64,000 nt of DNA from Burkholderiaceae bacterium (lineage in GTDB: Bacteria; Pseudomonadota; Gammaproteobacteria; Burkholderiales; Burkholderiaceae_B), in assembly GCA_004322135.1 (NCBI GenBank), contig SCSG01000004.1, positions 124,001-188,000 of the forward strand. Direction: 5' to 3'. A program made the translations under genes and the position numbers. Positions 8,287-28,191 of the stretch are shown here, piece after piece. The notes beneath the pieces were generated by a model. The model saw only the letters and a program-made list of their open reading frames with translations. It was not told where the DNA came from and searched no databases. Positions within the stretch are counted from its first letter, which is position 1. Each line of letters begins with the position of its first letter.

Positions 8287-8312
8287 GCCAAACCGTGGAA
8301 GGCGAGGCTCAG
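8283..8312. terminator. Weak convergent hairpin
   Basis: CTGAGCC and GGCTCAG form a 7-bp inverted repeat with a 16-base loop between the fossil ORF and the convergent MFS gene, overlapping the stops of both. There is no T-run, so it is at best a weak terminator. Confidence 0.3.
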
Positions 8313-9847
8313 GCCGGCGCCGTGCCGCTTGCCAGGATATGGCGGGGAACAAGCAGCACCACCAACAAGGTAAGCACCGCGGCCACCACCATGCCGGCGT
8401 AGACATAGTGCGTGGAAACGTCAAAGGCAAGCTGCAGATAATGCTGAATCTCGGGACCCATCGTATTCGCCTGCAACGCGCCCATGACGTCATCGACATT
8501 CGGCAATTTTCCCGCCAGGGCGACGGGCGCGCGGTCCAGTTCACCACGCATGGACGCATTGAAGAGCGCCCCGACGATGGCTGCCCCCAGGCTTTGGCCC
8601 AGATAGCGTGACCACATGTTCGCGCTGGTGACAACACCACGCTGGTTCCACGGCACAATCGACTGTACGCCGACCAACAGCGGCGTGGACAACATCCCGA
8701 AGCCGGCTCCAAGCAACGTCTGATCCAGGACGACCAGCCACCAAGGCGGCGAGTGGGGCATCAGGGTAAAGCCCAGCACCGTGACAAGAATCAACACCCC
8801 GCCCAGAAGCGCTGTATCACGAAACCCAATGCGCAAATACAAGTTGCCCGATATGGAAGACGCCACCGTCCAGCCTATGCTCAGCGTGGCGAGCAACAGG
8901 CCCGCGCTGATGGCGCCCAACCCCAGGACCGACTGGGCAAAGACGGGCAGATAGGTGCTGGGGGCCATCATGACAAGACCCATTCCAACCGCCCCCAGGT
9001 TCGCCCCGACCAGTACCCGGCGACGCCACACCCAGCCCGGCATGATGGGATCTGCGGCGGTGCGCTCGCGAATGATTGTTGCTCCCAGCAGCACAAGCGC
9101 CAGAACAAACGTAACCAGGCTGGGCAGTGACAGCCAATCCCAAGCATTCCCACCCTGCAACAGGCCAAACACCACGGCTCCACCTGCCAGCATCATCAGG
9201 CCGGCGCCAGCATAGTCGATGGAGTGGCGCCGCTTGTGAGTTTCTTCGTGCAGGAACCGGACAAGTAGCGCCATGGCGGCCAGGCCAATAGGCACGTTGA
9301 TCAGAAAAATCCAGCGCCAAGTCGCATATTCGGCGAACGCGCCGCCCACCGTGGGCCCGACGATGGCGGCAATTCCCCAGACGCTGGAGAGCCAGCCCTG
9401 TACGCGCGCACGTTCGCGTGTGGAATAGAGGTCGCCCGCGAGGGTATTGACCGTGGCCATGATGGAGCCAGCACCCAGACCCTGCACTCCCCGGAATACG
9501 ATCAGCGGGACCATGCCCCACGCCAGGGCGCAGGCCGCCGAGCCCACCAGGAACAGCGAGGCGCCACCGACCAGCACAGGCTTGCGGCCATACAGGTCGG
9601 CCAGCTTGCCGTAGATGGGTATCGTGACGGTCTGCGACAGCAGGTAAATGGAAAACAGCCAGGTGAACTCGTCGAACCCGCCCAGGTCGCCCACGATCTG
9701 GGGAATCGCGGTAGCCACGATGGTAATATCCATGGCCGCGAGCGCCATGGCCAGCATCAGCGCGGCCAGGATCCACCCTCGATGAGGCATGTTCCGGACT
9801 TCAGGTTCCGGATTCGGGGAGTCGGTCAAGGAGTGCTGTCCGGTCAT
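8309..9847 (-). CDS. MFS multidrug efflux transporter, DHA2 (EmrB/QacA) family
   Basis: Inner-membrane proton-driven exporter of 512 residues with the 14-helix DHA2 layout. The first helix carries 'MAAMDITIVATAIPQI'-type residues, characteristic motif D1 of drug:H+ antiporters, and 'GKLADLYGRKPVL' is the loop 2-3 motif A; 'WRWIFLINVPIGL' is typical of EmrB/QacA. It lies downstream of paaK on the same strand with a gap of 124 bases. It may protect against aromatic acids or toxic intermediates, but the family is broad. Confidence 0.88.
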   Translation of the reverse strand: MTGQHSLTDSPNPEPEVRNMPHRGWILAALMLAMALAAMDITIVATAIPQIVGDLGGFDEFTWLFSIYLLSQTVTIPIYGKLADLYGRKPVLVGGASLFLVGSAACALAWGMVPLIVFRGVQGLGAGSIMATVNTLAGDLYSTRERARVQGWLSSVWGIAAIVGPTVGGAFAEYATWRWIFLINVPIGLAAMALLVRFLHEETHKRRHSIDYAGAGLMMLAGGAVVFGLLQGGNAWDWLSLPSLVTFVLALVLLGATIIRERTAADPIMPGWVWRRRVLVGANLGAVGMGLVMMAPSTYLPVFAQSVLGLGAISAGLLLATLSIGWTVASSISGNLYLRIGFRDTALLGGVLILVTVLGFTLMPHSPPWWLVVLDQTLLGAGFGMLSTPLLVGVQSIVPWNQRGVVTSANMWSRYLGQSLGAAIVGALFNASMRGELDRAPVALAGKLPNVDDVMGALQANTMGPEIQHYLQLAFDVSTHYVYAGMVVAAVLTLLVVLLVPRHILASGTAPA

Positions 9848-9971: not shown

Positions 9972-11297
9972 CTAACTCTGCTTGGGACGTTCGTCGAACA
10001 CTCGACGCGCCTTGCCGGTCTGGATGCGAGGCAAGGTGCCATATTTAAGAACCGTGACATGCGTGGAAATGCCGACATTATTCTTCACACGGCGCTGCAG
10101 GGTTGCCGCGACCTCGCTCACTTTGTCCGCCGATAAAGTATCCGAGAATTCATGCTGCAGTTCACACTTGATCTCGACGCTGTCCAGATGGCCTTCGCGC
10201 GAAAGCAGGATCTGGTAATTGCTGCCCAGTTGGGCGTCACGCAGGATTTGCTCTTCGATTTGAGTGGGAAAAACATTTACGCCGCGCACGATCAGCATAT
10301 CGTCGGAGCGACCGGTAATGCGGCTCATGCGGCGAAAGCTGCGGGCGGTGGGCGGCAACAGGCGCGCAAGGTCACGCGTGCGGTAGCGAATGACAGGCTG
10401 GGCTTCCTTGGTCAGCGACGTGAAGACCAGCTCGCCCTGTTCGCCGTCAGGCAGGGACTCGCCGGTTTCGGGGTCGATGATTTCGGGGTAGAAATGATCC
10501 TCCCAGACAACCGGGCCGTCCTTGGACTCGATGCATTCCGAGGCCACACCCGGGCCGATGACTTCGGACAGGCCGTAGATATCCAGCGCGTCCAGCCCCA
10601 GCTTGCGCTCGATCTCGGAACGCATGCCTTCGCCCCATGGCTCCGCGCCAAAAATGCCGACCTTCAGTGAAATGTCTTCAGGTGCAATCCCCAGGTCCTC
10701 GAACCCTTCGGCTATGACCAGCGAGTAGGACGGGGTAACCATGATGATGTCGGGACGCAGGTCCCTGATCATCTGAATCTGTTTTTCTGTCTGGCCCCCC
10801 GACATGGGGATGACCATGCACCCGGCGCGCTCTGCACCATAGTGGGCGCCCAGACCGCCCGTGAACAAGCCATAGCCGTAAGCCACATGACAGATGTCGC
10901 CCGGCCTGCCCCCCGCCGCGCGGATGGATCGCGCCGCCAAATCGGACCAGACGTCAATGTCGTGAAGCGTGTAGCCAACCACTATCGGCTTGCCAGTCGT
11001 GCCCGATGTGGCGTGCACGCGCGCAACTTTGGACTGTGGCACGGCAAGCATCCCGAAAGGATAGTTGTCGCGCAGATCTGACTTGGTGGTGAACGGGAAT
11101 TTGACAATATCGTCCATGGTCTTGAGATCGTCGGGGTGCACACCCTTCTTGTCGAACGCTTTCTTGTAGTGAGGGACGTTTTCGTAAGCGTGCTTGAGCG
11201 TACCTTTCAGACGCTTGATCTGCAGCGCGGTGATTTCATCGCGGCTCGCGAGCTCTATGGGTTCCAGTTCTCCGGGACTGGGCTTCTTTACTGGCAT
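9972..11297 (-). CDS. paaK: Phenylacetate--CoA ligase PaaK
   Basis: ATP-dependent ligase that converts phenylacetate to phenylacetyl-CoA, the entry step of the aerobic hybrid phenylacetate pathway. The 441 residues match PaaK length. Visible motifs are the AMP-binding 'HATSGTTGKPIVVGYT' (about 94-109), 'YGLSEVIGPGVASEC' and 'YRTRDLARLLPP', with the C-terminal lid 'ITGRSDDMLIVRGVNVFP'. It follows paaN-paaG-paaI on the minus strand; the distance to paaI is 23 bases. Benzoate- or other aryl-CoA ligases of the same family are possible alternatives, but the neighbours favour phenylacetate or a substituted analogue. Confidence 0.9.
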   Translation of the reverse strand: MPVKKPSPGELEPIELASRDEITALQIKRLKGTLKHAYENVPHYKKAFDKKGVHPDDLKTMDDIVKFPFTTKSDLRDNYPFGMLAVPQSKVARVHATSGTTGKPIVVGYTLHDIDVWSDLAARSIRAAGGRPGDICHVAYGYGLFTGGLGAHYGAERAGCMVIPMSGGQTEKQIQMIRDLRPDIIMVTPSYSLVIAEGFEDLGIAPEDISLKVGIFGAEPWGEGMRSEIERKLGLDALDIYGLSEVIGPGVASECIESKDGPVVWEDHFYPEIIDPETGESLPDGEQGELVFTSLTKEAQPVIRYRTRDLARLLPPTARSFRRMSRITGRSDDMLIVRGVNVFPTQIEEQILRDAQLGSNYQILLSREGHLDSVEIKCELQHEFSDTLSADKVSEVAATLQRRVKNNVGISTHVTVLKYGTLPRIQTGKARRVFDERPKQS

Positions 11298-11324: not shown

Positions 11325-11801
11325 TCATTTTTGCGCCGCATCGCCTGCATCGTGCAGACTTTCTATGACGGTGCCCTTGATACGATGGGATTTGCCGCGG
11401 AACAGGGCGACGGCCTCGCGCGTTGCGGCCAGACGCACAGTGATGTCGTAAACACCCGTCTTTCCGGATAGGGTCTGCTCGACCGCATGCGCCTCGAGCA
11501 CGTCGCCTTCGTGGGCGGGTACGAGAAAATCGATCTGGCAGGCCGACGCCACGGCGTTGTGGTTGTAGCTGTTGCAGGCATAGGCGAACGTCGTGTCGGC
11601 AAGCAGGAAGATCATGCCGCCGTGGCAGATACGGTGCCCATTGAGCATGTCCGGGCGCACCGTCATGGTAAGCGTGGCCTGGCCCGGAGCGATCTCGGTA
11701 ATCTGTATGCCCAGGGCATGCGCCGCGCTGTCGCGGCTGAACATTGCCCGGGCGGTTGATTCGGCCAGTGTGAGGGCCTCGGCGGAAGCGGCCTGATTCA
11801 T
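11325..11801 (-). CDS. paaI: Hotdog-fold acyl-CoA thioesterase PaaI
   Basis: Hotdog thioesterase of 158 residues that hydrolyses stalled or dead-end aryl-CoA intermediates and so rescues CoA in the paa pathway. The diagnostic stretch 'LNGHRICHGGMIFLLADTTFA' style (here split around residues 53-75) includes the HGG motif and catalytic Asp. The track ORF begins upstream without coding character; the ATG at 11801 gives the expected PaaI length. It lies between paaG and paaK. Confidence 0.88.
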   Translation of the reverse strand: MNQAASAEALTLAESTARAMFSRDSAAHALGIQITEIAPGQATLTMTVRPDMLNGHRICHGGMIFLLADTTFAYACNSYNHNAVASACQIDFLVPAHEGDVLEAHAVEQTLSGKTGVYDITVRLAATREAVALFRGKSHRIKGTVIESLHDAGDAAQK

Positions 11802-11951
11802 AGCGTGACTCCTGTGTGCAGGCAAACCATGCGACGGAACGTCGCAATACGCGTGGCACCCCCCGGCAAGGGCTGGATGAACGAACAGGCTGCATGACGA
11901 GCACCCGACACCACGATGACCATTGGACAATACGGTAAAGCAACCATGGAT

Positions 11952-12746
11952 CTATTCCCCGGTGAAACGAGCTGCACGTTTTTCGGCGAAGGCCGCGAGG
12001 CCCTCGGCATAATCCGGACTCCAGCCCAACTCGCGCATGAAGCCCGCCTCCATCGAGAGTTGCTGCTCGAGTGTGTGCGACCGGGCGGCATGCATCGCCT
12101 GACGTGTACGCACCAACGCCTTGGTCGGCCCGGCGGCAAGCGTGCGCGCAGTCTGATCAACCAGGCCTTGAAACTCTGCGTCATCGACACACTTCCAGAT
12201 GAGTCCCCAATCAGCGGCAACCTGCGCCGGAAGCTTTTCAGCCAGCAGAGCAAGGCCCATCGCGCGTGCCATTCCGATACGTTGCGGCAAAAGCCACGTG
12301 CCACCGGTGTCGGGAATAAGGCCTATCTTGCTGAAGGCCTGAAGGAACGAGGCAGAACGACTGGCGATGACAAGATCGCAAGCGAGCGCTATTGAGGCAC
12401 CGGCCCCTGCCGCGATGCCATTGACGGCAGCAACCGTGGGAACACGCAGGTTCTCGAGCTGTAACACCAGCGGCTTGTAGAAGCGTTCAACCGTGTCGCC
12501 GAGATCGGGCTTTTGCCTGGACTGATCGGGCGCGGAAAAATCGCCAAGATCCTGACCGGCGCAAAAACCTCGTCCTGCGCCGGTAAGCACCAGCACGCGC
12601 ACAACCGGATCGCCCTGTATGGCATTCAGCGCCTGCCGGAGTTCGCCGTGCATGGCTTCGTTGAAGCTGTTGAGCTTGTCAGGACGATTCAGGGTAATTC
12701 GGGCAACCCCATCGTCTACGCCGAAAGAAATATGTTGGAATGTCAT
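11952..12746 (-). CDS. paaG: Enoyl-CoA hydratase/isomerase family protein PaaG
   Basis: Crotonase-fold enzyme of 264 residues. PaaG isomerises the ring-1,2-epoxide of phenylacetyl-CoA to the oxepin. The oxyanion-hole segments are 'GRGFCAGQDLGDF' (about 57-69) and 'GIAAGAGASIALACDL' (about 108-123), and 'PDTGGTWLLPQRIG' is the usual PaaG-like active-site region with Asp. It lies 21 bases downstream of paaN. Retention of a PaaG argues that the pathway makes a ring epoxide of an aryl-CoA even though paaABCDE is not in the window. PaaF-type hydratases are similar, so PaaG rather than PaaF rests on the GFCAGQDL and PDTGGT motifs. Confidence 0.85.
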   Translation of the reverse strand: MTFQHISFGVDDGVARITLNRPDKLNSFNEAMHGELRQALNAIQGDPVVRVLVLTGAGRGFCAGQDLGDFSAPDQSRQKPDLGDTVERFYKPLVLQLENLRVPTVAAVNGIAAGAGASIALACDLVIASRSASFLQAFSKIGLIPDTGGTWLLPQRIGMARAMGLALLAEKLPAQVAADWGLIWKCVDDAEFQGLVDQTARTLAAGPTKALVRTRQAMHAARSHTLEQQLSMEAGFMRELGWSPDYAEGLAAFAEKRAARFTGE

Positions 12747-12767: not shown

Positions 12768-14441
12768 TCAAGCCGACGGGTGCGCACGACGCTGAACGAC
12801 GCGGAAGCGATTGGCCACAAAGGCCGAGTCGGCATAAGACGCATTGGCGGCAGGGTTACCGCCCGTGCCATGAAAGTCGGAAAACGCCGCCGACTGATTG
12901 ACGAACACCCCGCCGGTAAGATTTATGGACAACGCCACCTGCACACGCCAGGTGGCCTGCGTCATGGCATCCAGCACGGCGGTATCGGTGCTGTAAATTC
13001 CGGCAGTCAGCGCGCCTTGTGTACGGACGATGCGCTCGGCCAGCGCAATGGCTGCCGTTGTATCGGCCACCTTGATGAGAAAGCTGATGGGGCCGAATTG
13101 CTCGTGCATGTAATGCGATTCGTCGGCCGCCGGGCACGAGACCAGCACGGGTGTGCGCACCCGTGCCTTCGGAAAATCGGGGTTCGTGAGCGACTGCGGC
13201 GCCAGCACGACTTGCCCCATTGCTCCGGCACCAGCCTGTTCGATGCGCCGCAGCGTATTGTCTGACTGAATGGCGCCCAGCACGGCATGAGCAACCTCGG
13301 GTTTCGCAAGAAAGCGGGTTATCGCCGAGGCCAGATCACTACCCACCTGCTCGAAGGACTTATCGCCTTCATCAGTGTGGATCCCGCTGGCGGGAATGAG
13401 AATGGCCTGGGACGTGGTGCACATTTGCCCGGAATAAAGGGAAAGCGTAAAGGCAAGGTTGCGCAGCATGGCCTGATACGCGTCGGTGGAATCGATTACG
13501 ATGGGATTGACCCCGGCCAGCTCGGCATAAACCTGGGCCTGCCGGCAGTTGTCGATGAGCCAACGACCAAAGTGGGTGCTGCCCGTGTAGTCGATGGAGC
13601 GCACATCGGGATGCGCCACCAGCGCCTGCGTGGCCTCGTGGCTGGCTGGCACGCACAGTGCAACAAGATCGGGATTGAGCCCATTTTCGGTCAGTACCTG
13701 CCGGATCGTGCGCACTGTGATCGCGGCGGGCAGCACTACGCTGCTGTGCGGCTTCAGAATTACCGGATTGCCGGTAGCCAGCGCGGCGAACAGCCCCGGG
13801 TAGGAATTCCAGGTGGGGAACGTTGCGCACCCCACCACGACACCCACGCCACGCCCGACCACCTGAAAGTGCTTTTCCATGACCAGCGCCGGATGCTTGC
13901 CTTGCGGCTTCTCCCATAGGCTCCGTTCGGGAATGAACGACATTTCGCGGTAAGCGTAGGCCACGGCCTCGAGCCCCCGTTCCTGAGCATGCGGGCCGCC
14001 TGCCTGGAAAGCCATCATCCAGCCCTGTCCGCTTGTCATCATGACAGCATGGGCCATCTCGAAGCTTTGCTTGTTCAGCCGGTCAAGGATTTCAAGGCAG
14101 ATGCCTGTACGGCCATCCACGCCGACGGCTTGCCACGCGGGCATTGCCGCCTGTGCGGCGGCGACAAGGGCCGGAACATCGCACGCGGGGTACTGCACGT
14201 TCAGCTCGATGCCGTAGGGCGAGGTCTCGGTGCCGCGCCAGCCCGTCTGCCCGGCCTGATGCAATTCAAAATGATTGCCAAGGTGCGCCTCGAATGCGCG
14301 CTTGCCGTCTTCAGCAGCCGTCTCGCCATACGCTTTGGGGCTGGGCATTTCACTGTACGCGGACCAGTACCCGCGGGTCTTGATGGTGCGCAGCGCACCA
14401 TCAAGTGTGGAGCGGTGCTTGTCCAGCAAAGGGTGCGGCAT
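12768..14441 (-). CDS. paaN: Phenylacetate degradation protein PaaN (aldehyde dehydrogenase-like)
   Basis: A 557-residue member of the PaaN type of aldehyde dehydrogenases, not the 680-residue PaaZ fusion with a MaoC hydratase. The ALDH core is recognisable: 'NPVILKPHSSVVLPA', 'DYTGSTHFGRWL', 'ELAGVNPIVIDS' and the catalytic cysteine in 'SLYSGQMCTTSQA'. The family is linked to the oxepin-CoA opening or aldehyde oxidation step. I chose the ATG at 14441 because a perfect GGAGG lies five bases upstream. It is first in the minus-strand paaNGIK operon and divergent from the oxygenase gene across a 376-base AT-rich promoter. Confidence 0.87.
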   Translation of the reverse strand: MPHPLLDKHRSTLDGALRTIKTRGYWSAYSEMPSPKAYGETAAEDGKRAFEAHLGNHFELHQAGQTGWRGTETSPYGIELNVQYPACDVPALVAAAQAAMPAWQAVGVDGRTGICLEILDRLNKQSFEMAHAVMMTSGQGWMMAFQAGGPHAQERGLEAVAYAYREMSFIPERSLWEKPQGKHPALVMEKHFQVVGRGVGVVVGCATFPTWNSYPGLFAALATGNPVILKPHSSVVLPAAITVRTIRQVLTENGLNPDLVALCVPASHEATQALVAHPDVRSIDYTGSTHFGRWLIDNCRQAQVYAELAGVNPIVIDSTDAYQAMLRNLAFTLSLYSGQMCTTSQAILIPASGIHTDEGDKSFEQVGSDLASAITRFLAKPEVAHAVLGAIQSDNTLRRIEQAGAGAMGQVVLAPQSLTNPDFPKARVRTPVLVSCPAADESHYMHEQFGPISFLIKVADTTAAIALAERIVRTQGALTAGIYSTDTAVLDAMTQATWRVQVALSINLTGGVFVNQSAAFSDFHGTGGNPAANASYADSAFVANRFRVVQRRAHPSA

Positions 14442-14817
14442 GGTGTCCTCCGGCATGAATGGTGGCAGCTTCGAACAGCATGATCGACATGCGAGTTCAT
14501 CGTCACATTACGTATTAATAATTATCTTGTCAATAACATGTATCGTTTATCTGAATAAAAATTCCTGGCCGGGGCCGATTCCTGCACCGCACAAAAATAA
14601 ATAAAAATCGATATATAACAATGCATTAAATATAAGTTTCAGACAAAATAAAACATTGATTTTCGTACTCGGCAAAGTGAATTCCATTTTTTTCGTCGGA
14701 TATGATACAAATAACTTGACATAAATCATATTCTCGTAACATGATAGCCACATCATCAACCGCATCACGATCCCCGCCGCCTTCCATGCGGCTTCGACCC
14801 CCTCTACGGGAGGAGTT
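14442..14817. promoter_or_regulatory. Divergent paa promoter region with ATATGAT-N18-ATCATAT dyad
   Basis: The 376-base gap between divergent paaN and the oxygenase gene is strikingly AT-rich against its surroundings. It contains a consensus -35 box TTGACA (14716-14721) with a candidate -10 CATGAT 18 bases on, pointing to the oxygenase. A perfect 7-bp inverted repeat ATATGAT (14700-14706) / ATCATAT (14725-14731) brackets this -35 box, well placed for a repressor such as the downstream PaaX. A TATAA-like stretch near 14515-14560 may serve paaN. Regulator assignment is inference. No coding capacity is evident. Confidence 0.55.
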
Positions 14818-15843
14818 ATGGCCAACAAAGAACGTTTCTCGGACAAAATGGAGTTCCCGCCCGAAATCGCACAACCCAATATTTACCCACTGTCCTGGCA
14901 CGTCAAGACACGCAAGCTGCAAGAAGTGTGGGAAGCGTCATTGCGCGAATACTGGCAACCGGAAAAACTGCCCTGGGACACGCTGGATGTAGACAGCTAT
15001 TCCTGGGAAGAACGCGAGTCCATCGCCTATTGGTGGACGCTGCTGTCGGTGTTCGACGCTTCAGCGCCTCCCGTCTTTGCGGCAGCCCTGATCAAGACCT
15101 ACGAAATCCACGAAGAAGACCCTGTACGCAAATGTTTCTTTTCCGTGACCAGCGACGAACAGAACCACGAAATCATGTGTGGCATGTCGATCACCAAGCT
15201 GCTCGGCCACCCCGATCCGCTTACGTACGAGCCCAAGACCGACATAGGCCGCCGCCTGCAAAAAAATGCAAAATGGCTGTATTTCAACGGCTCGCGCTAC
15301 TGGAATGGCTACAAGCAGGCCGTGCCCAAGTACGACCTGGCCGTACTGTTCAGCTCATTCCTCATGGGCGAAATCGCGTCGGCCACGATTTTCAAGCAAA
15401 TGCACGACAATGCGCGCGAGCCGCTTTTCAAGGAAGCATTCAAGAACATCGGCCGCGACGAAGGACGCCACATGGCAATCTGCATGGCAGTCATGGAGCG
15501 CGACTATCCTGGCCTAAGCGACGAACACCGATCCACCGTCACCAAGCAGATACGCGCAGGGTACCTGTTCCTGTCGGGGGTACTGTTCGAGCCGCCCATG
15601 GAATTTTGGGATCTGCCCCAAGACTTCATTGCCAACCAGCGTGAAGGTGAAGAAATCGCCCGCAATGCCGGCTTTGGCATACCAACCTATGACGCAAAGC
15701 GTGAAAACTGGCGCAATGCCATCATCAACCTCAAGGGAGTGCTGGATCACTATAATATTCCGTTCCCTGCAATTCCCGAGGTGGACATTACAGGCGAAGA
15801 AGTCTCGGACGTCAGCATGCAGGACATCATCCCTGTCTTCTGA
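14818..15843 (+). CDS. Ferritin-like di-iron oxygenase of unknown type in paa locus
   Basis: A 341-residue ferritin-fold protein. It has two EXXH motifs, 'EQNH' (114-117) and 'EGRH' (215-218), plus Glu185 in 'LMGEIASA' and a possible first ligand Asp80. The spacings E114-E185-E215 (71 and 30) resemble bacterial multicomponent and AurF-type di-iron oxygenases rather than ferritin. It does not resemble PaaA or BoxB as I know them. The next gene encodes a matching 2Fe-2S/FAD/NAD reductase, and paaX follows; paaNGIK is divergent. I infer an oxygenase acting on an aryl-CoA or aryl acid in this pathway, perhaps in place of PaaABCDE. The start has a strong GGAGG just upstream ('gggaggagtt'). Confidence 0.75.
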   Translation: MANKERFSDKMEFPPEIAQPNIYPLSWHVKTRKLQEVWEASLREYWQPEKLPWDTLDVDSYSWEERESIAYWWTLLSVFDASAPPVFAAALIKTYEIHEEDPVRKCFFSVTSDEQNHEIMCGMSITKLLGHPDPLTYEPKTDIGRRLQKNAKWLYFNGSRYWNGYKQAVPKYDLAVLFSSFLMGEIASATIFKQMHDNAREPLFKEAFKNIGRDEGRHMAICMAVMERDYPGLSDEHRSTVTKQIRAGYLFLSGVLFEPPMEFWDLPQDFIANQREGEEIARNAGFGIPTYDAKRENWRNAIINLKGVLDHYNIPFPAIPEVDITGEEVSDVSMQDIIPVF

Positions 15844-15970
15844 TGACAAGGTTCGCGGCCAGCATCAAGGTGGTGCGGCGTTGACGACCGGACCCGTCGC
15901 TCATTGCGGCGGGGTCCCGACGGCAATGCCAACCCCTCACAACACCGCAGCAGAATTTCTGGAACAGGAT

Positions 15971-17011
15971 ATGGCCCGCGTAGTAATTCAGCCCTCAGGC
16001 AAGACAGTCGAATGCCAGGGCAGCGACACCGTACTGATGGCCCTGGAAAAGGCCGGGTACGCGCTGCCCAACAATTGCCGGGCGGGTGCCTGTGGTGAAT
16101 GCAAGGTCAAGGTCCTTTCTGGCGAATACGACCAGGGCATGGTGCTGGACATGGCACTCAGCCCCGAAGAACGGCGCGAGGGTTTCGGACTCATGTGCAT
16201 GGCCAAACCCACTTCCGAAGAAATGGTCATCGAATGGGGCACGGCCGATGCGCGCCCCAAACTCTTTCCGCCGCGCGAAGGTGCACTCTTCGTGGTGGTG
16301 GACCGTCGCGAACTGGCACAATCCCGCATTATCGAGCTAAGCCTGCGACCGGTCGGCAAGCCCATCCGGTACTGGCCTGGCCAGTATGTCACGCTGGGCG
16401 ATATGCGCGCCGACATCCCGTTGCGGGCCTACTCCATTTCCAACGCACCGCGCCCCGACGGCGAACTGGTACTTCAAATCGCGCGGGCCGAGGGTGGCGT
16501 AACCAGCAACTGGGTTTACGAACACGTGCAGTGCGGCGACAGCATCAAGATCAATGGCGCGTACGGAACCTTCATTGGCGACCCCTCCGCGGAAACTCCC
16601 GTCCTGTGTCTGGCAGCGGGTACGGGTCTCGCGCCAATACTGGATCTTGCCGAAGCGGCCTTGCGCAGAGGGTATAAAAAGCATGTTGACCTTCTGGTCT
16701 CCGCGCGTACCCTGGACGACGTCTACAGTGTAGGCATGATGGCCTGGTGGCGTGCAAAACACCGCAACTTCGACTACAAAATCACGCTGACGCGCGAAGA
16801 GCGCGAGGGCTACCTGCATGGCCGCGTCAACACGCTGCTGCCCACGCTTTATCCCGACTTATCCAAACACAGCGTCTTCATCGCAGGCAGCACGGCATTC
16901 GTGGACGACTGCGTCGCCGTGGCCAAGTCCCTGGGGGCCCAGGATGAACTGATCCACAAGGAAGGGTTCTTCGCGCAGCAGATGGGCAGAACCGAAGGCC
17001 ACCAAATCTGA
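15971..17011 (+). CDS. 2Fe-2S/FAD/NAD oxidoreductase, electron donor of the di-iron oxygenase
   Basis: A reductase of about 346 residues with a plant-type 2Fe-2S domain first, then FAD- and NAD-binding domains. The cluster motif is 'NCRAGACGECKVKV' with a fourth Cys in 'GLMCMA'; the FAD motif is 'LRAYSISNAP' and the nucleotide motif 'LAAGTGLAPILDL'. This domain order is that of DmpP/MmoC/BenC-type reductases and is the reverse of PaaE, in which the 2Fe-2S domain is C-terminal. The gene lies 127 bases after the oxygenase gene. I chose the ATG at 15971, where the 2Fe-2S domain begins; an in-frame ATG at 15926 is the alternative. Confidence 0.85.
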   Translation: MARVVIQPSGKTVECQGSDTVLMALEKAGYALPNNCRAGACGECKVKVLSGEYDQGMVLDMALSPEERREGFGLMCMAKPTSEEMVIEWGTADARPKLFPPREGALFVVVDRRELAQSRIIELSLRPVGKPIRYWPGQYVTLGDMRADIPLRAYSISNAPRPDGELVLQIARAEGGVTSNWVYEHVQCGDSIKINGAYGTFIGDPSAETPVLCLAAGTGLAPILDLAEAALRRGYKKHVDLLVSARTLDDVYSVGMMAWWRAKHRNFDYKITLTREEREGYLHGRVNTLLPTLYPDLSKHSVFIAGSTAFVDDCVAVAKSLGAQDELIHKEGFFAQQMGRTEGHQI

Positions 17012-17043
17012 ACACCGGAGGCGGCCTGGCGGCGGCACACACT

Positions 17044-17994
17044 TTGATCCAATCCATCCACAGCCGACTTGAATCGTTTCGCCAGCAAGGGCGCGCTCCC
17101 GCCGGTTCGCTGATCGTGACGGTGTTTGGTGACAGCGTGCTGCCACGCGGTGGACGAATCTGGCTGGGCAGTCTCATCCGCCTGCTCAAACCCCTGGAGC
17201 TGAACGAACGGCTGGTGCGCACCTCCGTGTTTCGCCTGGCCAAGAATCAGTGGCTGCAGGCCGAAGCCCACGGACGGCGAGCCGATTATGTGCTGACGCA
17301 TTCGGGGCGGTTGCGTTTTGAAGAAGCGTCACGCCACATCTATGCATCCAGGATACCCGTCTGGGATCACCGCTGGCGCCTCATTCTTATAGTTGGCGAG
17401 CTCAGTACACGAGAACGCGAACGCCTGCGCCAGGCACTGGCCTGGCAAGGCTTCGGCATCCTGAATGGCGATTGCTTCGTGCACCCCTCGACCGATCTGG
17501 TGGCGGCCTTCGACGCCCTCGTGGCCGACGGGCTGTCAAGCCTGCTTGGCAGACTGATGCCGCTGGTTGCCGCCGATTCACGCTCGGCCCTGTCAGCGAC
17601 CGATGTAGATCTGGTTGGACGAGCGTGGAATCTGGACAAGCTGGCGCAGGCCTACAGCGCCTTTGTCGCGGATTATCTGCCCATCCTGGCGGAACTGCGC
17701 CGAGACCATTCAGCCAGGATCGATGCAGAGGAAGCGTTCCTGCTGCGTATCCTGCTGATTCACGACTACCGCCGCCTGCTGCTTCGCGACCCCGAGCTGC
17801 CCGACGTGCTCTTGCCGCCTGACTGGCCCGGCCAGACAGCACGGATGGTGTGCTGCGAACTGTACCGGCGCCTTTTCGAGCCTTCCGAGGCCCACCTTGA
17901 CAAGACCATGCACTTGGCTGACGGTACGGTGCCGCCCCGTCAAATTATGGCGGACGAGCGCTTCCCGGCGAATGATCTTTTGCCGGTAGCCTGA
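17044..17994 (+). CDS. paaX: PaaX-family transcriptional repressor
   Basis: A 316-residue PaaX-type regulator, the phenylacetyl-CoA-responsive repressor of paa genes. The N-terminal helix-turn-helix region includes 'GSLIVTVFGDSVLPRGG' and 'NERLVRTSVFRLAKNQW', both typical of PaaX, and the C-terminal PaaX_C segment has 'LRILLIHDYRRLLLRDPELP'. It begins with TTG, 32 bases after the reductase gene, and is likely cotranscribed, giving autoregulated control of the locus. Confidence 0.9.
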   Translation: MIQSIHSRLESFRQQGRAPAGSLIVTVFGDSVLPRGGRIWLGSLIRLLKPLELNERLVRTSVFRLAKNQWLQAEAHGRRADYVLTHSGRLRFEEASRHIYASRIPVWDHRWRLILIVGELSTRERERLRQALAWQGFGILNGDCFVHPSTDLVAAFDALVADGLSSLLGRLMPLVAADSRSALSATDVDLVGRAWNLDKLAQAYSAFVADYLPILAELRRDHSARIDAEEAFLLRILLIHDYRRLLLRDPELPDVLLPPDWPGQTARMVCCELYRRLFEPSEAHLDKTMHLADGTVPPRQIMADERFPANDLLPVA

Positions 17995-24574: not shown

Positions 24575-26647
24575 TTGGCTTATTCACTAGCCGTAGATAT
24601 TGGCGGCACCTTCACTGATATCGTATTGCGTAGCCCCGATGGTCAGCTCACCGTAGACAAAACGCTAACCACGCCCGGAAATCTGCTGGAAGGTTTTTTC
24701 AACGGGGTCAACTCCGTGCTGAGCAAAGCACAACTCACGCCAAGCAGCGTAGACGGCACGATCGTCCACGCAACCACCGTCGTGACGAATGCACTCATTG
24801 AGCGTAAAGGCCCCAAAACAGCCATGCTGGTAACGGAAGGGTTTCGCGACATTCTGGCCATACGCGACGAGCACCGCTACGACATGTACGACCCACAAAT
24901 CGAATTTCAGCCACCATTGGTGCCACGCGAGCTGACATTCGGAATCGGCGAACGGACCCATGCAGACGGAACCGTCGCACGCGACCCTGCACAGGACGAG
25001 GTGCAAAAATGCATCGAACAGTTGCGGCAACTCGACGTGAAAGCCGTCGCTATATGTTTCCTTAATAGTTACGTCAACCCGAAGAACGAGCGCATCGTGG
25101 GAGACATGCTGCACGCTGCGATGCCGGATCTGTTTATTTCACTATCGTCCGAGATCGCACCACAAGTTCGCGAATACCCCAGGGCTTCCACGACGGCGAT
25201 AAACGCATTCACCATGCCGATATCGCAGCCGTATTTACGCGCATTGGCTAAACGGCTCAAGAGCGAAAGCTACCCCAACGAGCCGCTCATCATGCTGTCT
25301 TCCGGAGGCATCATCGGCGTCGAAGTCGCAGGCCGCAATCCAGTACGCATGATCGAAAGCGGGCCGGCGGCTGGTGCACTGGCCGCAAGCCACTACGCAG
25401 AGGTGCTGGGGTTGAAACGCCTCATGTCATTCGATATGGGTGGAACCACGGCCAAAGCGTGCCTCATCGACAATTTCAAACCGCTAATTGCCGGCCTGTT
25501 CGAAGTTGATCGCCGATACCGCTTCAAAGAGGGCAGCGGCATGCCAATCACGATCCCATCGATAGACATGATCGAAATCGGCGCCGGTGGCGGCAGCCTT
25601 GCCTACGTAGATGACCTTAAGCTGCTGAAAGTCGGCCCACGAAGTGCCGGCGCAAACCCCGGCCCGGCATGCTACGGCCAAGGGGGCAAAGAGGCGGCCG
25701 TCACCGATGCCGACCTGTTACTGGGGTTGCTGGATGCCGACAACTTCCTCGGGGGCGAAATGAAGCTGGACTACGCCGCCAGCGAACGCGCCATTACAGA
25801 ACTCGGACGACAACTGGGAACGGACGCTCGCACTACCGCACGTGGCATTTACCAAATTGTCGCGGAGGCCATGGCAGGGGCCACACGCGCCCATGCCACA
25901 GACCGTGGCATCGATTATCGCGGCTTGTCTCTGCTTGCATTTGGTGGTGCCGGGCCAGTCCACGCCTGCGAAGTCGGGGCGTTACTCCAAAGTGAGTCTG
26001 TCATCTTTCCGCCGCAGGCCAGCGTGCTGTCGGCATTTGGAACTCTGGTCACGCCGGTCCGCCTCGATCTGGTACGCGGTGCACTGGGTATGCTCCAGGA
26101 CACCGATTGGAACAAGGTAGATCGCCTGTACAACGAAATGGAGAAAGAAGCCACGAGTGCGTTGTCCGCGGCGGGGTGCAACGCACAAGACATCACGCTT
26201 ATCTTCGGTGCTGACATTCGCTATTTCGGCCAGCAGAATGAAGTCAGCGTCACGCTCAAGGATGACCCACGCCTCTTACACGAAGCCGCTCAAATCGAAA
26301 AAGCGTTCGACGATGCATACCAGGCGCAATACGGTTTCAACCCAAGACACGTGCCAGTCGAAGTGGTCAGCTGGCGTCTTACGGCACGGGGCCCGCTCAT
26401 ACCATTCCACGCCGCGATCAACCTGCCAACAACGGAAGGCGCGCCCAAGAAGAAACGTTTGGTCCATCTTTGGGGCAATGATCGCACAGTCCCCGTCTAC
26501 GACCGTCAGGCGCTAGCCAACGGCCAAAAGATAGCTGGCCCAGCCATTATCGAAGAACGCGAGACAACAATCGTCATCCACCCGGACTGGACGGCACACG
26601 TCGACAGATTCGGATGCATCGTCGCGAAACTAAAGGATCAAGCATGA
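24575..26647 (+). CDS. hyuA: Hydantoinase/oxoprolinase family protein HyuA (ATP-dependent amidohydrolase alpha subunit)
   Basis: A 690-residue HyuA-type subunit, which phosphorylates a lactam or amide so that HyuB-HyuA can open it. Visible motifs are the actin-like phosphate loop 'DIGGTFTDIV' (about 8-17), 'HATTVVTNALIERKGPKTAM', 'FDMGGTTAKACLID' and 'IGAGGGSLAYVD'. The start is TTG with AAGGAG six bases before it. It overlaps hyuB by ATGA. Family members include N-methylhydantoinase, 5-oxoprolinase, caprolactamase and acetone/acetophenone carboxylase subunits; no third (gamma) subunit is present, which disfavours acetone carboxylase. The true substrate is unknown. Confidence 0.9.
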   Translation: MAYSLAVDIGGTFTDIVLRSPDGQLTVDKTLTTPGNLLEGFFNGVNSVLSKAQLTPSSVDGTIVHATTVVTNALIERKGPKTAMLVTEGFRDILAIRDEHRYDMYDPQIEFQPPLVPRELTFGIGERTHADGTVARDPAQDEVQKCIEQLRQLDVKAVAICFLNSYVNPKNERIVGDMLHAAMPDLFISLSSEIAPQVREYPRASTTAINAFTMPISQPYLRALAKRLKSESYPNEPLIMLSSGGIIGVEVAGRNPVRMIESGPAAGALAASHYAEVLGLKRLMSFDMGGTTAKACLIDNFKPLIAGLFEVDRRYRFKEGSGMPITIPSIDMIEIGAGGGSLAYVDDLKLLKVGPRSAGANPGPACYGQGGKEAAVTDADLLLGLLDADNFLGGEMKLDYAASERAITELGRQLGTDARTTARGIYQIVAEAMAGATRAHATDRGIDYRGLSLLAFGGAGPVHACEVGALLQSESVIFPPQASVLSAFGTLVTPVRLDLVRGALGMLQDTDWNKVDRLYNEMEKEATSALSAAGCNAQDITLIFGADIRYFGQQNEVSVTLKDDPRLLHEAAQIEKAFDDAYQAQYGFNPRHVPVEVVSWRLTARGPLIPFHAAINLPTTEGAPKKKRLVHLWGNDRTVPVYDRQALANGQKIAGPAIIEERETTIVIHPDWTAHVDRFGCIVAKLKDQA

Positions 26648-28191
26648 ACGGAATTGAGCTCGAGATACTTTGGTCGAATCTCATCAGCATCGTAAGCGAG
26701 CAGGCCAAGAGCCTGCAACGTATTGCGTTTAGCCCAATCGTACGGGAAGCGGGTGATCTGGCCAGCGCCCTGTTCGACGCGCGCGGACGCATGGTTGCAC
26801 AGGCAAACACAGGCACGCCAGGCCACATAAACTCACTGGCAGCCGCAGGCGGGTATTTACACACCCGTTTCAAGGATCAGCTTGAAGAGGGCGACGTAAT
26901 CATCACGAACGATCCGTGGATATCCGCCGGCCACTTCTTCGACATCACCTTGTTGCAGCCAATAATGAACAAGGGAAGGCTTATTGGATACATAGGCTCC
27001 ACCATCCACCACACCGACATCGGAGGATACGGCATTGGTGCCGGCGCTCGAGACGTCCACGAAGAAGGCTTATGGATACCCCCGCTGAAATTCTTCGCAG
27101 CGGGCGTACCGGACAAAGCCATACACGACATTATTCGCAGCAACGTTCGTACTCCAGATCACGTCTTCGGCGATCTCGCCGCACAGGTTGCCAGCGGGAA
27201 ATCCGGCGGCGAACAACTACTCTCTATGTGCAACCGATACGGGCTAAACGACATCGAGCAACTCTCTGACGAAATCATCCGGCGCTCAGAAGAATCAACT
27301 CGAGCCGAAATTCGTAAGCTGCCAGCGGGGACCTATCTTGGGGAAAGCGAATTTGACGTCCCGGGTGGCGAAGTCATTACGCTTAAAGCGGCCGTCACCA
27401 TCGATAACGTCAAGGGAGAGGTTCTTATTGACTTCGCCGGCAGCTCCGGGGCTAGTGCCTCTGGCATCAATGTCGTAATGAACTACACGCACGCCTACTC
27501 GACGTTCGCCATCCGCAGCTGCCTGAACCCAGACCTGCCCAACAACCACGGCAGTCTGGCGCCTATTCTGGTAACTGCCCCCAAAGGGTCCATCGTCAAC
27601 TGCGTATACCCTTCACCCGTCAATGCGAGGCACGTGGTGGGCATGTACGTGCCCATGCCAATACTGAAAGCACTGCATCATGTCATCCCTGATCGAGTGC
27701 TTGCCGAAGGCGCGGGTGCTGTCTGGACCATGCAAATTCAGGGAAAACGAGGCGATGGCCTCCCGTTTACCTCTTCAATGTTCAACTACTCCGGAGGCAT
27801 GGGCGCGCGGAAAACAAAGCCCGGCCCCGACGCGACTTGTTACCCGACGGGCGTCGGTGCAGTACCCGTTGAAATCCTCGAAGCAGCGATTCCCATTATT
27901 TTCGAAGAGAAAGAATTGCGTATCGGTTCAGGAGGAAAAGGCCGGCAACGAGGCGGGGACGGACAGATCATCAAGTTTCGCATCCAGACGCCATACCCGT
28001 GGCTCCTGAATGCCGTACCCAGCCGACTGACCAAAGGCCCGGAAGGTCTGGACGGAGGAGAGCCTGGCGCAGCCGGCCACTTTACGGTGAACGGCAAACC
28101 CATTTCAGAGGCCCGAAAAATCTCATTGCAGCCAAACGACGTAGTAGTACTTGAAACCCCAGGTGGTGGAGGTTTTGGAAAAGCAATCTGA
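26644..28191 (+). CDS. hyuB: Hydantoinase B/oxoprolinase family protein HyuB
   Basis: A 515-residue HyuB-type subunit that carries the hydrolytic or carboxylating half of the complex with HyuA. Typical segments are 'SPIVREAGDLASALFDARG' near the N terminus, 'GHINSLAAAGGYLH', 'NDPWISAGHFFDITLLQPI' and the C-terminal 'VLETPGGGGFG'. The ATG at 26644 overlaps the hyuA stop (ATGA), so the track start upstream is rejected. The ABC binding protein follows after 26 bases, which ties import and hydrolysis of one substrate together. Confidence 0.9.
   Translation: MNGIELEILWSNLISIVSEQAKSLQRIAFSPIVREAGDLASALFDARGRMVAQANTGTPGHINSLAAAGGYLHTRFKDQLEEGDVIITNDPWISAGHFFDITLLQPIMNKGRLIGYIGSTIHHTDIGGYGIGAGARDVHEEGLWIPPLKFFAAGVPDKAIHDIIRSNVRTPDHVFGDLAAQVASGKSGGEQLLSMCNRYGLNDIEQLSDEIIRRSEESTRAEIRKLPAGTYLGESEFDVPGGEVITLKAAVTIDNVKGEVLIDFAGSSGASASGINVVMNYTHAYSTFAIRSCLNPDLPNNHGSLAPILVTAPKGSIVNCVYPSPVNARHVVGMYVPMPILKALHHVIPDRVLAEGAGAVWTMQIQGKRGDGLPFTSSMFNYSGGMGARKTKPGPDATCYPTGVGAVPVEILEAAIPIIFEEKELRIGSGGKGRQRGGDGQIIKFRIQTPYPWLLNAVPSRLTKGPEGLDGGEPGAAGHFTVNGKPISEARKISLQPNDVVVLETPGGGGFGKAI

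Follow-up and report, generated by a model that had tools for sequence, protein, structure and literature searches.

We propose, with a probability of roughly 0.77, that two adjacent genes in a phenylacetate (paa) locus of a Burkholderiaceae bacterium, here called OXY and RED, encode a two-component phenylacetyl-CoA ring oxygenase (epoxidase) that would feed PaaG and is unrelated to the PaaABCDE oxygenase. The evidence in hand comprises gene content, conservation, the ligand motif, the modeled fold class, the operator sequence and the presence/absence pattern, from which we infer the activity. Most likely, the pair evolved independently and is an alternative to, and often coexists with, PaaABCDE, with phenylacetyl-CoA as the presumed substrate and its epoxide as the presumed product. 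OXY is currently annotated as “hypothetical protein”, and the literature yielded no activity, substrate or growth phenotype for OXY-RED and nothing usable on an alternative phenylacetyl-CoA oxygenase or on phenylacetate growth of species without PaaB (the atypical oxygenase of PMC9416434 was rejected as a precedent, because PaaA and PaaB are annotated in the genome concerned).

Organization of the locus

The window (the whole stretch of DNA analyzed, 64,000 nucleotides) carries paaK, paaI, paaG and paaN on the minus strand, and OXY, RED and paaX run divergently on the plus strand:

8309 to 9847, minus strand: MFS transporter, DHA2/EmrB-like (model score below cut-off), 3' of paaK
9972 to 11297, minus strand: PaaK, phenylacetate-CoA ligase (TIGR02155, 705 bits, cut-off 646)
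11325 to 11930, minus strand: PaaI, thioesterase (TIGR02286, 160 bits, cut-off 119)
11952 to 12746, minus strand: PaaG, 1,2-epoxyphenylacetyl-CoA isomerase (TIGR02280, 372 bits, cut-off 345)
12768 to 14456, minus strand: PaaN, aldehyde dehydrogenase, ring-opening step (TIGR02288, 871 bits, cut-off 579)
14703 to 14741, plus strand: predicted PaaX-type operator, TGATAC-N27-GTAACA (repeat search, comparison with the E. coli site)
14818 to 15843, plus strand: OXY, predicted 341-residue di-iron oxygenase, R2/R2lox/AurF-like ferritin superfamily (open reading frame, profiles, alignment, model)
15971 to 17011, plus strand: RED, NAD(P)H reductase of the BenC/MmoC type (open reading frame, Pfam/NCBIfam domains, adjacency to OXY)
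17044 to 17994, plus strand: PaaX, phenylacetyl-CoA-responsive repressor (TIGR02277, 275.8 bits, cut-off 264.6)

The five paa genes named in the original prediction (paaN, paaG, paaI, paaK and paaX) each exceeded the cut-off of their equivalog model, and, as it had also stated, neither a small effector protein nor a second hydroxylase subunit is encoded between OXY and PaaX. The domain order given there for the reductase (2Fe-2S, FAD, NAD) was recovered with Pfam as Fer2, FAD_binding_6 and NAD_binding_1. The closest NCBIfam model to RED is BenC (145 bits), with MmoC at 115 bits, both scores being far under cut-off, and its score on the BoxA model was 19.9 bits against a cut-off of 459. Translation of RED likely starts at the ATG at 15971 and not at the upstream TTG of the longest open reading frame, and the true start of PaaI is probably internal to the called frame. 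The tie of the MFS transporter to the phenylacetate pathway is uncertain. Elsewhere in the window, at 26614-28191, there is a protein with weak similarity to a caprolactamase beta subunit (NF050157, 166 bits, cut-off 1000).

Predicted metal site and fold of OXY

OXY has two ExxH motifs (E114xxH117 and E215xxH218) together with E185 and D80, the set that the original prediction had read as the ligands of a ferritin-fold protein. All six residues are invariant in an alignment of 46 orthologues and in a 10-member set with identities down to 49%. In the AlphaFold2 model (pLDDT 81.6, pTM 0.85), which has an R2/ferritin-like fold, D80, E114/H117, E185 and E215/H218 are each on a different long helix. 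This is the arrangement of the ferritin-like di-iron proteins, a group recognized by two ExxH motifs and two more carboxylates distributed over the four helices of a bundle. Distant homologues (~22% identity) have Glu in place of Asp80, and a phmmer alignment puts Asp80 opposite an Asp of R2F that we take to be a metal-binding residue.

By fold, OXY seems to lie closest to the ribonucleotide reductase (RNR) R2 side of the superfamily. The best Foldseek matches of the model against the PDB were RNR R2F and R2lox (probability 1.0, TM-scores only 0.3-0.57, no E-value below 0.001), and a profile search of the PDB returned weak matches only, R2lox among them. The sole Pfam match at E 0.001 was AurF (PF11583; 1e-5, 25.3 bits, under its cut-off of 29.6), so that no Pfam family was found above cut-off, nor was any NCBIfam model matched. 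OXY did not match PF05138 (PaaA_PaaC), and hhalign gave no significant match to E. coli PaaA (probability 0.5%) or to NrdF. Judged from the model, OXY would be a di-iron protein nearest by fold to RNR R2/R2lox, not to PaaA or BoxB.

Distribution of the OXY-RED pair

With each species represented by a single genome, a scan recovered 151 OXY relatives, and synteny was analyzed in the best 80 of these (80-89% identity), which come from Castellaniella, Dechloromonas, Azonexus, Zoogloea, Achromobacter, Paraburkholderia, Marinospirillum, Insolitispirillum and others. RED adjoins OXY in 79 of the 80, and the genes near OXY in these best 80 of 151 include PaaG (59), PaaN (57), PaaK (50), PaaH (50), PaaJ (46) and PaaX (43), several of the loci being too short to show every gene; three close relatives (L036, L039, L040) have PaaH and PaaJ within the OXY cluster. 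The pair is widespread and conserved, mostly inside paa clusters, in many denitrifying and related Proteobacteria.

A sister clade at ~50% identity (L121, a plasmid of Variovorax sp. RA8, and L124) has OXY-RED in a different aryl-CoA locus. Its neighbors on the Variovorax plasmids are a PaaK-like ligase, an enoyl-CoA hydratase, a MaoC-type hydratase, a thiolase and a branched-chain ABC transporter, and in L121 an indolepyruvate ferredoxin oxidoreductase gene is nearby. The sister-clade loci showed no paa genes and no strict PaaX-type site. This clade points to a family of aryl-CoA oxygenases that is broader than the paa-linked pair.

A predicted PaaX-type operator upstream of OXY

The promoter region of OXY carries an inverted repeat, TGATACAAATAACTTGACATAAATCATATTCTCGTAACA, at 14703-14741, which departs from the relatives' strict consensus at one position; it overlaps a -35-like TTGACA at 14716, a promoter match that is no better than chance. 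The motif was derived by a palindrome search of the same OXY upstream regions. Of 80 sequences, 46 have its strict form, (C/T)GATAC-N25-30-GTATC(A/G), within 450 bp 5' of OXY, whereas none of 1600 shuffles has it. If each half-site may deviate at one base, the repeat is found in 74 of 80, a form that is common by chance elsewhere and had no shuffle control, and therefore the strict count carries the operator argument. Within the loci, 74 of the 84 strict sites precede OXY or paa genes, with a spacing of 26-28 bases.

The E. coli PaaX site is TGATTC(N27)GAATCA, and the effector of PaaX is phenylacetyl-CoA (PMC9493321). The E. coli site, whose geometry equals that of the OXY repeat, was recovered 5' of E. 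coli paaA. In Achromobacter, OXY-RED is on another contig than paaABCDE and both promoters carry a PaaX-type site, the one in the paaX-paaA region with one mismatch. The OXY promoter carries a predicted PaaX operator, through which PaaX may repress the pair, and an operator of this type implies control by phenylacetyl-CoA.

Occurrence in relation to PaaABCDE

PaaB was absent from 20 of the 50 OXY-carrier genomes checked. In all 20, OXY lies beside PaaG, with PaaN (19) or PaaZ (1), and PF05138 found no protein at all in 19 and a BoxB-size match in one, with control scores of 261-327 bits in three PaaB-bearing genomes. In G118, a genome assembled as a single contig and 99% complete, OXY and PaaN occur without PaaB, and PF05138 gives nothing beyond a match of BoxB size. 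PaaABCDE coexists with OXY in the other 30 of 50, sometimes side by side, and is close beside OXY in only 6 of the 80 loci.

We surveyed 269 genomes of the source organism's family. OXY was present in all 7 near-complete genomes with PaaN but not PaaB and in 5 of 131 genomes with both (Fisher 4.9e-9, a P value that overstates independence, since the seven represent three genera). A sixth genome with both, bearing a 53% sister-clade homologue, was left out of the OXY count, and two genomes with PaaN but neither PaaB nor OXY (57% and 77% complete) were set aside as incomplete. In a second survey, of another family (270 genomes around Dechloromonas denitrificans), there was no association when no score threshold was put on PaaN (OXY in 23 of 47 without PaaB vs 25 of 56 with PaaB, P = 0.70); at PaaN E <= 1e-255, a threshold set post hoc, the counts were 21 of 26 vs 25 of 55 (P = 0.004). 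Both surveys count genomes without correction for kinship.

The five remaining genomes of the second set, with a high-scoring PaaN and neither PaaB nor OXY, each have a PaaA-like protein of 259-268 residues in the paa cluster, so that every high-scoring paaN without paaB in this set is accompanied by another di-iron protein, a pattern recognized after the fact. A flavodoxin gene is divergent to the PaaA-like gene in four of the five (for the fifth, a simple gene caller settled on another frame there). The lone PaaA-like protein with flavodoxin is possibly a third kind of phenylacetyl-CoA oxygenase. In these loci (L128-L132; genomes G326, G355, G346, G556 and G569) the flavodoxin is located between the PaaA-like protein and paaN; the single PaaA-like protein at L128:10611-11390 scores 86 bits on PF05138, and L130 has a strict PaaX-type site in its PaaA-like/flavodoxin region.

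The frequent coexistence means that OXY-RED is not always a replacement: the original statement that the pair stands in place of PaaABCDE agrees with the surveys for genomes without PaaB but fails as a general rule. It is also what speaks for a competing explanation, in which OXY-RED oxidizes a related compound (for instance an arylacetyl-CoA, hydroxylated or otherwise modified, or a phenylacetate precursor) and shares the paa genes as a pathway partner, not as the epoxidase; PaaABCDE being present in 30 carriers and beside OXY in six loci fits such a partner, and the sister clade, whose neighbors include a different aryl-CoA ligase as well as hydratases and a thiolase, indicates that substrates can differ. 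However, the 20 carriers without PaaB keep PaaG and PaaN or PaaZ by OXY, and without ring epoxidation these enzymes would have no substrate, which, together with the control by phenylacetyl-CoA that the operator implies, makes this explanation rather unlikely.

Other candidate oxygenases in the source genome

The source assembly is a draft of 49 contigs, 95.7% complete. A profile search found no PaaB (PF06243), and a PF05138 search of the contigs found no canonical PaaA or PaaC, in keeping with the claim that the five-subunit epoxidase is missing. The only PF05138 proteins are BoxB (a 479-residue open frame on contig C45) and two distant PaaA-like proteins on contig C32. A search for paaF and boxAB, which had been proposed as a check, gave a PaaF candidate on contig C9 (47% to E. 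coli PaaF) and, on C45, a box operon that encodes a CoA ligase as well as BoxA, BoxB and BoxC; this operon serves benzoyl-CoA and leaves the finding of a missing PaaABCDE unrefuted. No oxepin-CoA hydrolase was found in the source genome above the cut-off of its model.

The two PaaA-like proteins (L004:3926-18587; 250-255 residues, 80% identical to each other, 60-72 bits to PF05138) are accompanied by a 2Fe-2S/FAD/NAD reductase, a CoA ligase, and thiolase-like and MaoC-like genes, and are predicted to form another aryl- or acyl-CoA oxygenase cluster. Since this cluster combines two PF05138 proteins with a reductase and a CoA ligase, and BoxB is present as well, one of them might oxidize phenylacetyl-CoA, with OXY-RED as an accessory. 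We consider this very improbable: the C32 genes are away from the paa genes, proteins of their type were found in no other PaaB-less carrier searched (most of which lack any PF05138 match), and BoxB is encoded in the separate box operon on C45. That PaaABCDE exists and was simply missed in the 49-contig draft, so that nothing was replaced, is hardly credible, as the same absence recurs in 20 of the 50 carriers and in the one-contig genome G118.

A further gene of the PaaG family exceeding the TIGR02280 cut-off lies on contig C12 (97286-98050), beside acpS and uvrC. A second paa cluster on this contig was considered and rejected, the gene being in a conserved housekeeping neighborhood. TIGR02280 over-calls PaaG in this family, and because its cut-off is also exceeded by a housekeeping paralogue, PaaG was rejected as a pathway marker, and its retention, from which ring attack had been argued, is a weak argument. 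Stronger arguments than PaaG alone come from the survey of gene content and from the PaaX-type operator that OXY shares with paa genes.

Proposed role and comparison with known systems

In the proposed scheme PaaK would make phenylacetyl-CoA, and electrons would pass from NAD(P)H to FAD and the 2Fe-2S cluster of RED and on to the di-iron site of OXY. O2 would be activated there and one oxygen atom placed onto the ring, giving the 1,2-epoxide, which PaaG would convert to oxepin-CoA for PaaN and a hydrolase. PaaX would repress OXY-RED by binding the inverted repeat over the promoter. The surveys agree with the earlier idea of a single-polypeptide alternative; ring attack is the step that we infer, and frequent coexistence with PaaABCDE qualifies the idea. 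Where both systems coexist, OXY-RED probably serves as an alternative under different conditions; low O2 would be one speculative example.

We lean towards the broader view that OXY and its relatives are new, independently evolved single-polypeptide aryl-CoA ring epoxidases from the R2/AurF branch, not the PaaA/BoxB branch, with one clade for phenylacetyl-CoA and a sister clade for another aryl-CoA. If true, the R2/AurF di-iron scaffold reached ring epoxidation independently, and, with the lone PaaA-like protein and flavodoxin, there would be three clearly different solutions to one step. As a simple two-protein system attacking the aromatic ring of a CoA thioester, the pair would also be more tractable for study and application than a multi-subunit complex. 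PaaA and PaaC have been put forward (PMC13186573) as markers by which phenylacetate degradation can be recognized in genomes; such a marker would then miss Castellaniella and certain species of Dechloromonas, Azonexus, Brachymonas and Insolitispirillum.

OXY-RED resembles PaaABCDE in its niche beside paaN, paaG, paaI, paaK and paaX, in an operator of the same kind, and in combining a di-iron oxygenase (predicted for OXY) with an FAD/2Fe-2S NAD(P)H reductase. It differs in that a single gene, without detectable sequence kinship to PaaA, stands against paaA, paaB, paaC and paaD, and in that the 2Fe-2S domain is first in RED but last in the PaaABCDE reductase. With BoxAB it shares the two-component plan with a single-polypeptide di-iron oxygenase acting on an aryl-CoA (predicted for OXY); however, BoxB is a weak PF05138 member whereas OXY has no match, and the source genome has its own BoxAB. 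AurF, RNR R2 and R2lox are the closest by the weak AurF profile match and by Foldseek, but OXY differs from them in having a reductase as its partner and in lying in paa or aryl-CoA loci, and its scanned relatives (set A3) are all near or under the AurF Pfam cut-off. AurF presumably carries an extra ligand His four residues before the last ExxH glutamate; OXY has I211 at this position. The soluble di-iron monooxygenases (MMO, phenol/toluene hydroxylases) share the domain order of their reductase with RED, but the OXY locus has no gene for a beta or gamma subunit or an effector, and OXY has no Pfam match to the hydroxylases.
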